The notes below the pieces were generated by a model. It saw only the letters and a program-made list of their open reading frames with translations. It was not told the origin of the DNA and did not search any database. Below, in pieces: positions 2,184 through 9,147 of a stretch of 49,561 nt of DNA; the stretch's first letter is position 1; each line of letters starts with the position of its first letter. The stretch is from an uncultured Clostridium sp. (GTDB lineage: Bacteria > Bacillota_I > Bacilli_A > RF39 > UBA660). The translations under genes were made by a program, and so were the position numbers. The stretch lies in assembly GCA_946402315.1 (NCBI GenBank), contig CAMIWC010000009.1:1-49561 (forward strand). The letters run 5' to 3'.

Positions 2184-2762
2184 TTATTGAATAATTTTTT
2201 CTTTTTGTTTTTCTGATGAAACTATATCAGAGCATCGTTTAATTGGATCAGTTATAATATAAGTTAATGCTTCTACACAACTACCAATTTTTAGTTCTCC
2301 TTCTAAATCTGGAATAATACCATGAGATTTAAAAGCAAAATACATTTCACGAGCACCGTCAGTAACGCCCATACTTTTTAAAGCATCAATTGCAGTTTTA
2401 TCATAGTATCCTACTTTTAATGGTTCATCTTTTTGTTTTGTATAAAAGTAAACTCCTCCAACATCATCAACGACCGTTCCAAATAATGAATCACTATCTC
2501 CTACGATTTTTATTTCAGCTCCGTTCCAACTACTAAAATCACCTTGACACAAACAAATTCTTAATATATTAGTATTTGAACTTGTTTTTTGAGATATTTC
2601 TAATACTCCACCGTTTTTAGTCGTTTTTGTAACTAATGGAAGATTAGTTTTACCGAATGGAGTTACACCAGCTGCATCTTGTAATTTTTGACATTCATCA
2701 GCTGATAATCCAAGCTTATCTCCAAAGCAATATGATAATTCTAAGTATAAACTATATTTCAT
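2184..2762 (-). CDS. Unknown 192-residue protein under a manganese-type riboswitch
   Basis: 192 residues with no signal peptide or membrane helix, so probably cytosolic. I do not recognise the family. It has five cysteines (CFG, DECQ, ICLCQ, SCVEA, RCSDI), a Gly/Asp-rich central section (GDSDSLFGTVVDDVGG) and a Lys-rich C-terminus. The start has a strong GGGGG Shine-Dalgarno about 8 bases upstream. It is a single-gene transcript with its own consensus promoter at 2958-2986, a yybP-ykoY-like aptamer and its own terminator. This arrangement predicts induction by Mn(II), so a role in manganese handling or tolerance is inferred from context only. It is not an MntP-, TerC- or P-type ATPase-like sequence. 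Confidence 0.75.
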   Translation of the reverse strand: MKYSLYLELSYCFGDKLGLSADECQKLQDAAGVTPFGKTNLPLVTKTTKNGGVLEISQKTSSNTNILRICLCQGDFSSWNGAEIKIVGDSDSLFGTVVDDVGGVYFYTKQKDEPLKVGYYDKTAIDALKSMGVTDGAREMYFAFKSHGIIPDLEGELKIGSCVEALTYIITDPIKRCSDIVSSEKQKEKIIQ

Positions 2763-2830
2763 TTTAATTCCCCCTTATTTTACTTAGATTTTTGAAAGGA
2801 AAAACTTTTATCAGAAGGAATCAATGTATA

Positions 2831-2864
2831 AAAAAACAAGACTTCTACTTCTGTAAAAGTCTTG
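2831..2864 (-). terminator. Riboswitch expression-platform terminator
   Basis: A near-perfect hairpin (CAAGACTTTTAC against GTAGAAGTCTTG, 2837-2864, one mismatch) is followed by at least six T on the minus strand. Its 5' arm is the 3' edge of the aptamer, so ligand-bound aptamer and terminator are mutually exclusive. This is the usual ON-switch arrangement. Confidence 0.85.
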
Positions 2865-2949
2865 TTCAATAACTACTTATCTTCTAATCCAGTTTAAAAC
2901 GGACTGACGAATTAGAACTATTCATATGAATAGGAACTACTCCCCTTCA
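2853..2949 (-). promoter_or_regulatory. yybP-ykoY-family (Mn2+) riboswitch aptamer
   Basis: Read on the minus strand, the leader has the conserved elements of this class in order: GGGGAGTAG (2937-2945), then CGTCAG (about 2904-2909), then a G/T-rich internal stretch, then TGAACAAGACTTTTAC at the 3' end (2853-2868). A perfect promoter lies immediately upstream and a terminator overlaps the 3' edge. The family senses Mn(II). The call rests on conserved sequence blocks and layout; a covariance search was not run. Confidence 0.8.
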
Positions 2950-2957
2950 ATGATTTA

Positions 2958-2986
2958 ATTATACCACATTTTACACTTTTTGTCAA
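2958..2986 (-). promoter_or_regulatory. Consensus sigma-A promoter for the riboswitch transcript
   Basis: TTGACA (2981-2986), a 17-base spacer and TATAAT (2958-2963), with an extended TGG before the -10. Transcription would start about 10 bases upstream of the GGGGAGTAG element. Confidence 0.9.
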
Positions 2987-3032: not shown

Positions 3033-3109
3033 TGGTGTTCTCGGCGAGATTCGAACTCACGATCTTTCGCTTAGGAGGCGACTGCACTATCCTACTGTGC
3101 TACGAGAAC
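3033..3109 (-). tRNA. tRNA-Arg (anticodon CCT)
   Basis: 77 nt with encoded CCA. The acceptor stem GTTCTCG pairs with CGAGAAC. The D stem is GCAC/GTGC. The anticodon loop CTCCTAA gives CCT, which reads AGG. The T loop is TTCGAAT. The first anticodon-stem pair is a G-A mismatch; the other stems are good. It follows the gene at 3128 by 18 bases and may be co-transcribed with it. Confidence 0.95.
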
Positions 3110-6173: not shown

Positions 6174-6297
6174 TCATTTTAACATAATACTTCCATCTTT
6201 ATCAGTTCTATATATTTTTGAATTCTCTAAATTATCTAACACTTCTTGATTAGGATGACCAAATTTATTATTTTTACCCACTGATATTGAATAGTTA
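6174..6297 (-). pseudogene. Duplicated remnant of the comEC 3' end
   Basis: The minus-strand frame reads SVGKNNKFGHPNQEVLDN and then NSKIYRTDKDGSIMLK followed by TGA. It matches the last part of ComEC (7093-9147) almost residue for residue but ends about ten residues earlier. There is no start codon or upstream domain, so this is a non-functional fragment of a second comEC copy. It lies downstream of the inserted peptidase gene. Confidence 0.85.
6205..6281. repeat. Direct repeat, copy A (77 bp identical to 7163-7239)
   Basis: These 77 bases are identical to 7163-7239 inside comEC. Weaker similarity extends about 25-40 bases to the left. The pair brackets the peptidase gene 6363-7061. Confidence 0.95.
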
Positions 6298-6319
6298 GTA
6301 CATATGATTAAAGTTTTCA

Positions 6320-6354
6320 AAAAATGAAAAAACTGCAATATATAATTGCAGTTT
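6320..6354 (-). terminator. Terminator after the gluzincin-type peptidase gene
   Basis: A 9-bp stem (AACTGCAAT/ATTGCAGTT, 6331-6353) with a 5-base loop and a TTTTTTCATTTTTT run on the minus strand, just after the stop at 6363. Confidence 0.85.
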
Positions 6355-7092: not shown

Positions 7093-9147
7093 TTATGGGA
7101 TATAGGTTTTTATTTTCAATTTGTTATTTTTTGTCTTGAACATAATACTACCATCATGATCTGTTCTATATATTTTTGAATTCTCTAAATTATCTAACAC
7201 TTCTTGATTAGGATGACCAAATTTATTATTTTTACCCACACTAATAATAGAATACTTGGGATTAATACTATCAATAAATTCTTTACTACTACTAGTTTTT
7301 GAACCATGATGTCCTACTTTTAGTACATCTATATTTGAAATATTATATTTATCTAAAATATCTTTTTCTTTATCAATTCCAGAGTCTCCCATAAATAAAT
7401 ATTTCTTATTATTTATTTTAGTATATATAACATTACTATTATCATTTTCATTATTATATTCTCTTGTTTGTAAAAAATATAATTTTATATTATTTACATC
7501 AATCTTATTAATACATTTATCATAATTTATATTTTTACTTTCTAATACACCTATAAGTTCAAGCTCTAATCTATTGTATTCGCCACAATTAAATATAACT
7601 TTATCTACTTTATAATTCTCTACTAAATTAATACTCTCTCCCATATGATCATAATCTCCATGAGTAAGTATTAAATAATCTATTTTCTTTATTCCTAAAG
7701 ATTTAAATACAGGAATAGTTGTATTAGATACTATTGAATAATCTTTTCCTAGTAGTCCTCCTGTATCAATTAATATATTTTTATTATATATATGAATTAA
7801 TGTTGAATCACCTTGACCTACATCTAAAAATAAGACATAAGTGCTTTTAAAAATACTATTATAGTTATATAAAACAATTAATATAATTACTAATAATAAT
7901 TTATATAATCTTTTTTCTTTTAAAGAAAAATATATAATTATATATAAAAATATTATTACAAAAATATTTGGTTTTATAAAAATAATATGACTATTTATAT
8001 TATTAAAAACAATAGATAATCTTTCTAGTATATTTAATAATAAATATAAAGGAACATCAAATACTTTAAATAAGATAGTTATACATGATAATGGAAATAT
8101 TACTAATGATATTAAAGGTACAAATATAAGATTATAAAATACTGTTAATAAGTTTAATTCATAATAATTATATAAAGATATAGGTAAAGATACTAAGAAC
8201 GCTATTAAAGATGTCATAGACAATCTATATACATAACTATTCTTTTTATTTATTAGATTACTAAATATTATTAAAGAATAAGTAATAGATGCTGAGAATA
8301 AGAAACCAACATTATAAATAATAAAGGGATTCAATAACAGAATAATACTTATGGTAAGTAATAATATATTACTTATTTTTATATTAAAGTAATAGTACTT
8401 GTTTATTGATAATAGGATAAAGAATAGTCCACTTCTTAAAGCTGAGGGAGTAAAACTAACTAAAAAGAGAAAGAATAATACAAATACTATAGATATAATA
8501 GTTCTACTTAATTCCTTTATTTTTAACTTATTTAATACCTTTAAAACAAAACCAGTAAGAATAGTTATATGCATACCTGAAATAGCTAATAAATGACTTA
8601 TTCCTAATCTCTGATAATTATTCTTAATAACACTATCTAGATATCTGTTATCACATAGAATAAAAGTATATAAATAAGATTTAGATTTATAATTATCTAT
8701 CCTCTTATAAAGTTTTTCTTTTATAAAATATAATATATTTCTATTTCTATTAACTAATTCTATTTTCTTAACATAAATAGATAGATATATATTTTTAGAT
8801 TTCATATATTTAGAATAATCAAATGTATTAGGATTTGTTGGTTTACTTATTTCATTTATTTCTCCGTATACAACTACTCTATTTCCTAAAATAAATATAT
8901 CTTTTAGAGAATTATATTCATCTTCATTGTTAAAGTAATAAGTGCATTTATATTTATTATTCCCTTGAATAACAAAATCTATTCTTAAATCATTATAGTA
9001 ATAGTCTATAATATTACCTTCTATAGTATTAGAATCAATCTTTATACTTTTATTAAAGTTTATTCTTAGAAAAAGAACTAATAAAACAATAAAGAATATT
9101 AAGTAATATAATCTATCATACAGTAATATTTTCCTTAATCTTAGCAT
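7093..9147 (-). CDS. comEC: DNA uptake channel ComEC/Rec2
   Basis: 684 residues, the usual full length. The order is N-terminal membrane segments and a soluble OB-like part, then a multi-helix competence domain starting near the LAISGMHI motif. The C-terminal metallo-beta-lactamase domain has FLDVGQGDSTLI, THGDYDHMGE and GHHGSKTSSS. ComEC passes single-stranded DNA across the membrane in natural transformation; the lactamase domain is a candidate nuclease. It overlaps the comEA 3' end by 32 bases; the start is supported by GGAGA about 8 bases upstream. Its last roughly 40 codons are duplicated at 6174-6297. Confidence 0.95.
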   Translation of the reverse strand: MLRLRKILLYDRLYYLIFFIVLLVLFLRINFNKSIKIDSNTIEGNIIDYYYNDLRIDFVIQGNNKYKCTYYFNNEDEYNSLKDIFILGNRVVVYGEINEISKPTNPNTFDYSKYMKSKNIYLSIYVKKIELVNRNRNILYFIKEKLYKRIDNYKSKSYLYTFILCDNRYLDSVIKNNYQRLGISHLLAISGMHITILTGFVLKVLNKLKIKELSRTIISIVFVLFFLFLVSFTPSALRSGLFFILLSINKYYYFNIKISNILLLTISIILLLNPFIIYNVGFLFSASITYSLIIFSNLINKKNSYVYRLSMTSLIAFLVSLPISLYNYYELNLLTVFYNLIFVPLISLVIFPLSCITILFKVFDVPLYLLLNILERLSIVFNNINSHIIFIKPNIFVIIFLYIIIYFSLKEKRLYKLLLVIILIVLYNYNSIFKSTYVLFLDVGQGDSTLIHIYNKNILIDTGGLLGKDYSIVSNTTIPVFKSLGIKKIDYLILTHGDYDHMGESINLVENYKVDKVIFNCGEYNRLELELIGVLESKNINYDKCINKIDVNNIKLYFLQTREYNNENDNSNVIYTKINNKKYLFMGDSGIDKEKDILDKYNISNIDVLKVGHHGSKTSSSKEFIDSINPKYSIISVGKNNKFGHPNQEVLDNLENSKIYRTDHDGSIMFKTKNNKLKIKTYIP
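7163..7239. repeat. Direct repeat, copy B (inside comEC)
   Basis: The 77 bases encode the VGKNNKFGHPNQ region near the ComEC C-terminus and are identical to 6205-6281. Confidence 0.95.

Follow-up and report, generated by a model that had tools for sequence, protein, structure and literature searches.

Riboswitches of the yybP-ykoY class have described targets that are largely transporters, in particular manganese exporters (PMC3766115). In known members, Mn2+ docks loop L1 onto loop L3 and steadies helix P1.1, and the terminator is thereby blocked (PMC6754395, PMC11087558). The ion is bound by N7 of one adenosine, A41 in Lactococcus lactis and A48 in Xanthomonas oryzae (PMC9190785, PMC6754395). 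Here we describe a divergent element of this class in a 49,561-nucleotide (nt) stretch of DNA (the window; contig CAMIWC010000009.1 of assembly GCA_946402315.1, positions 1 to 49,561) from an uncultured Clostridium sp. of the GTDB lineage Bacillota_I; Bacilli_A; RF39; UBA660. The element stands before a gene for an orphan protein of 192 amino acids (aa). We conclude that it is probably a manganese-responsive, antiterminating ON-switch that has been redeployed as a portable leader before unrelated genes, the orphan gene included.

Anatomy of the leader and its proposed switch

The features of this locus lie on the minus strand of the window. The leader opens with a sigma-70 type promoter (2986-2958) that is, as the original prediction had claimed, a perfect TTGACA-17-TATAAT with 12 of 12 consensus matches, and that carries a TG ahead of the -10 element. 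About 10 bases past it lies the aptamer (2948-2855), beginning with the 5' block GAAGGGGAGTAG at 2948-2937. The ordered yybP-ykoY blocks that had been read from the letters were all located: GGGGAGTAG at 2945-2937, CGTCAG ending at 2904 and GAACAAGACTTTT at 2867-2855. We assigned the parts of the aptamer as helix P1.1 (GAAGG/CTTTT), loop L1 (GGAGTAG), helix P3 with loop L3 (CGTCA), and side hairpins. An extra hairpin follows the L1 block (2933-2918), the helix TTCTAATT/GATTAGAA flanks CGTCA (2917-2882), and a short hairpin (2881-2867) is succeeded by AACAAGACTTTT at 2866-2855.

The overlapping terminator that had been proposed was found as well (2867-2830; -18.4 kcal/mol). Its stem comprises 15 pairs over 2867-2834 with the T run next to it, and the 3' strand of P1.1 (2859-2855) sits within its 5' arm (2867-2853), so that P1.1 and the terminator are mutually exclusive. 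Folding energies calculated without ligand favoured the terminator fold (-28.5 kcal/mol, versus -11.1 kcal/mol for the aptamer with P1.1). The arrangement recurs in the window's family, in which all 45 elements had a terminator and 41 had the P1 strand within its 5' arm. Judged from its sequence, the window leader holds all pieces of the ON-switch of known members.

We propose that the 192-aa gene is controlled by transcription antitermination through this riboswitch. RNA polymerase would initiate at the strong promoter and transcribe the aptamer. In the absence of Mn2+, the 3' P1.1 strand (CUUUU) would be pulled into the 15-base-pair terminator and transcription would stop ahead of the gene; with Mn2+ between L1 and L3, P1.1 (GAAGG/CUUUU) would stay, the terminator would be prevented and the gene would be ON. 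We infer both Mn2+ as the ligand and the ON direction.

The single 192-residue gene of the original prediction (2762-2184) is a real gene, judged from codon use. Its open reading frame (ORF) scored -5.19 bits per codon, compared with -4.98 for the window's long ORFs and roughly -6.4 for its own other two forward frames, and its GC content at third codon positions was 10.4% versus 10.6%. A strong Shine-Dalgarno sequence (AAGGGGGAA; 2776-2768) precedes the start at 2762. The ORF looks like a single-gene unit because a terminator-like hairpin of its own comes after it (2174-2149; 11-pair stem).

Assignment to the yybP-ykoY class

We built a covariance model, R1, from ten elements, none of them from the window's family, after trimming variable loops manually. 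R1 detected the window element at 23.9 bits, with an E value of 1.4e-4 when the window was searched and 2.7e-3 for the whole genome; model R3 scored it at 38.6 bits. The ordered pattern GGGGAGTAG-CGTCA-CAAGAC was present in 13 of 196 related genomes, and the reversed control in none (0/196). In Clostridia, Ruminococcus and Rhodanobacter, genes for P-type ATPases, MntP, TerC and antiporters are preceded by the same motif.

The residues of the metal site are in place. The window element has the conserved L1 GGGGAGTAG and the canonical L3 CGTCA, and it retains the Mn-sensing L3 adenosine, as do 34 of the 35 aligned rows of the window's family, across which L1 is invariant. Its unusual CTGG arises because the last P3 pair before L3 is G-U. 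In an alignment of 52 distinct elements, this final pair was G-C in 34 rows, A-U in 6 and G-U in 3. Our first drawing of P3 (pairs 37-47 and 38-45) was replaced by one in which a C-G and a G-C pair extend the helix, backed by A-U and G-U variants.

Several points weigh against this assignment. Running Rfam model RF00080, as had been suggested with the original prediction, did return a match, but at 20 bits, against a gathering threshold of 45 bits. At that threshold the model found no match in the window, in 20 loci of the window's family or in 19 further loci; in the window's own genome it found none at E 0.001, and its matches in 97 relatives were weak and all below threshold. The helices do covary, scoring 0.69 versus 0.21 in shuffles for 16 elements, with 92% of pair cells paired, and 0.53 versus 0.15 for the 52 distinct elements aligned to the model, but both alignments are biased towards the structure. 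Positions of L3 vary within the family, with A in place of U39 in some rows. Finally, the 45 family elements precede mostly unrelated proteins of unknown function, with few manganese transporters among them.

Several of the 19 further loci missed by RF00080 carry elements ahead of P-type ATPase, MntP or TerC genes. Because the model also misses loci with known targets, its score does not discriminate here, and we dropped it as a criterion. The low score would be expected if the locus merely combined a promoter and a terminator with short motif matches and held no riboswitch, but the match to R1, the covariation, the empty reversed-pattern control and the known targets behind the same motif all speak against such a chance resemblance, which we regard as extremely improbable. 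The independent covariance model, the covariation, the metal-site residues and the terminator overlap instead support the identification of the window element as a divergent yybP-ykoY riboswitch. We note that annotation relying on the Manganese model of Rfam release 15, with its 45-bit gathering score, may lack elements of the window's type.

Targets and copies of the element in the family

Model R2, which includes family members, was run on 386 genomes of the window's family and gave matches in 33, some of them multiple, with six in genome G414 and two in the window's own genome. The final family set, after two discards and one addition (G004), held 45 elements in 34 genomes. The discarded matches (G236:C37 and G273:C4) were probable false positives, and G236:C37 resembles the coding sequence of a ComEC-like gene. 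Transporters stood behind only two of the 45 elements (one P-type ATPase and one antiporter-like gene). The targets include PGDYG-like proteins, several kinds of lipoprotein, SPFH/Band-7, NfeD, nucleoside-deoxyribosyltransferase-like, AdoMet-decarboxylase-like and transglutaminase-like proteins, and many singletons.

Scanning public genomes with the pattern yielded at least 80 loci, and R3, which shares its core motif with the pattern, confirmed the element in 79 of the 80 matches listed. Among the matches listed, most were metagenome-assembled genomes from the gut that bear the labels Bacilli, Tenericutes or Erysipelotrichaceae and show the odd targets of the family set, and the elements from Clostridia, Ruminococcus and Rhodanobacter stood mostly before P-type ATPase, MntP, TerC and antiporter genes. 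Pooling the family set with these matches gave at least 122 elements before at least 43 unrelated protein clusters; the two sets share some genomes and their counts are not independent. The odd target, which the original prediction had treated as a single case, has dozens of unrelated counterparts behind this element across the family, and this weakens the argument that a protein behind a manganese switch must itself handle manganese.

One target family that recurs, about 190 aa long and with a weak likeness to PGDYG (loci L043, L053, L056, L057, L101, L114 and others), has a confidently predicted structure (predicted local distance difference test, pLDDT, 91.7). Foldseek returned no PDB entry for this model at E <0.001 and a second comparison none at Z ≥5, which does not show a new fold. 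AdoMet-decarboxylase-like proteins (PF02675) were found behind the element at L054 and L052 (G389 and G436), and at L077 (G414:C3) two elements precede two adjacent genes, for a 138-aa protein and an SPFH protein.

Lipoprotein signals were present in 18 of 86 family targets and 10 of 254 neighbouring ORFs, a contrast whose P value is too small since many of the lipoprotein targets fall in two homologous groups. MeeF and MeeY are TerC proteins of Bacillus subtilis, MeeY being encoded behind a manganese riboswitch; together with the secretion machinery they supply exported enzymes with metal, and their interaction table includes flotillins (PMC10246235). As a suggestion only, an envelope manganese response would fit the lipoprotein and SPFH targets.

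The L3 subtypes CGACA and CAACA occur within the window's family. The second element of the window's own genome (L071, 1381-1472; G000:C3:52880-52971, plus strand), which precedes a nucleoside-2-deoxyribosyltransferase-like gene, has CGACA. These subtypes, together with family targets unlike all described ones, could mean that an aptamer of the same architecture senses another metal or has broadened its specificity, which would explain the non-exporter targets. We consider a changed ligand unlikely: the window element's L3 reads canonical CGTCA and includes the Mn-sensing adenosine, L1 does not vary, and two family elements still precede the P-type ATPase and the antiporter-like gene.

Leaders of this type have near-identical copies within genomes. 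In G434 (L048 and L072), two leaders with unrelated genes behind them share 97% identity across 198 nt, a stretch that reaches from the promoter to the ribosome site; paired leaders with different genes behind were also found in G368 (L078 and L063; 95% over 196 nt) and G294 (L079 and L080; 97% over 141 nt). The MntP and P-type ATPase loci that we examined in the window's genus had no such element, and neither an MntP nor a P-type ATPase gene was seen in the window's genome, which is 74% complete. The near-identical leaders and these loci without the element suggest that the switch has been redeployed. The whole leader (promoter, aptamer and terminator, up to the ribosome site) would then be a portable cassette set before unrelated genes, with the 192-aa orphan as one case.

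Leaders copied as units before unrelated genes could also be hitch-hiking or decayed copies, which fold and supply a strong promoter but do not usefully regulate the orphan. The sister species G006 has no element at this locus, and homologues of the second target of the window's own genome, found in 7 of 291 family genomes, have the element in 3 and lack it in 4; both observations point the same way. Set against this, the window and most of the 45 elements keep an intact promoter, aptamer core, P1.1 pairing and terminator overlap, and target families that recur across genera argue for selection. We judge passive copying to be quite improbable. At L230 (G301:C11), a close homologue of this deoxyribosyltransferase-like target lacks the element and lies directly after an ORF that resembles TelA.

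As for the family as a whole, we lean somewhat towards the view that these small-genome gut Bacilli have made the manganese riboswitch a portable leader, with cassettes copied within genomes, dozens of mostly unknown targets, and the examined MntP and P-type ATPase loci left without the element. If true, this would be a manganese-responsive regulon made of RNA leaders, not of a protein repressor.

The orphan gene and comparison with known riboswitches

The 192-aa protein has six cysteines (12, 24, 70, 72, 162 and 177), one more than originally counted, and no membrane or hydrophobic segment. We found no convincing relative in Pfam, NCBIfam, PHROGs, PDB sequences, phages, plasmids, viral contigs or the 386 family genomes. 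Weak partial matches in the 97 and 386 genomes, viral contigs, phages and plasmids were mutually discordant and were not accepted; the strongest, at E 0.0011, covered 52 residues of a 709-aa frame. Matches of residues 122-153 to pentatricopeptide-repeat designs in the PDB were rejected, as they comprised 32 residues of repeat and no passing stretch. Single-sequence structure prediction gave no confident fold (pLDDT 40.9) and was not used, and profile comparison with 42 clusters of other element targets stayed below 1% probability throughout. As had been claimed, the protein matches no known target type (TerC, MntP, P-type ATPase or cation antiporter) in Pfam or NCBIfam, and these searches support a target outside the known exporter families.

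Upstream of the leader, a VanY-like gene and a 158-aa gene are common to the genus, joined in some species by a tRNA-Arg gene. The order tRNA-Arg(CCT) then element (tRNA at 3036-3109, minus strand, in the window; L073, G046:C3) is common to two genera, with a different gene behind the element. A mobile island at tRNA genes was rejected as a general rule, given that a tRNA lies in the 600 nt ahead of just 3 of the 45 elements. In the close sister species G006, neither switch nor gene follows the tRNA, and on such comparisons the 192-aa gene is lineage-specific. Its product may help the cell to respond when manganese is high, perhaps in the envelope; the latter role is suggested because many co-targets are lipoproteins and SPFH proteins.

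Elsewhere in the window, a 54-aa ORF (6174-6338, minus strand) nearly repeats the C-terminal end of a ComEC-like protein encoded at 7093-9147 (SVGKNNKFGHPNQEVLDNLENSKIYRTD), and is probably a partial duplication.

The window leader is a switch of a known kind. Like RF00080 riboswitches of the L. lactis yoaB and B. subtilis meeY (ykoY) type, it has L1 GGGGAGUAG, L3 CGUCA with the Mn-sensing adenosine, the P1.1 switch helix, the AACAAGAC junction and a P1.1 whose 3' strand is shared with the terminator. Unlike them, its P1.1 ends in CTTTT instead of CCTTC, it has CTGG instead of CCGG with a G-U pair beside L3, an extra hairpin follows L1, its score falls below the Rfam threshold, and its target is an orphan instead of a transporter.

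What merits further attention is the use of the switch for unknown genes throughout the family. A whole bacterial family that goes undetected at the present Rfam threshold appears to apply it to other proteins, in what looks like a clear case of riboswitch spread through leader duplication. The family targets, the window orphan among them, are ready-made candidates for manganese-response genes whose function is unknown. S-adenosylmethionine (SAM) and cyclic di-GMP riboswitches are classes with many copies per genome, and here too one aptamer class has several copies before several genes in one genome. Unlike those classes, the family copies stand before mostly unknown, unrelated genes, and they belong to a class that is normally tied to metal export.
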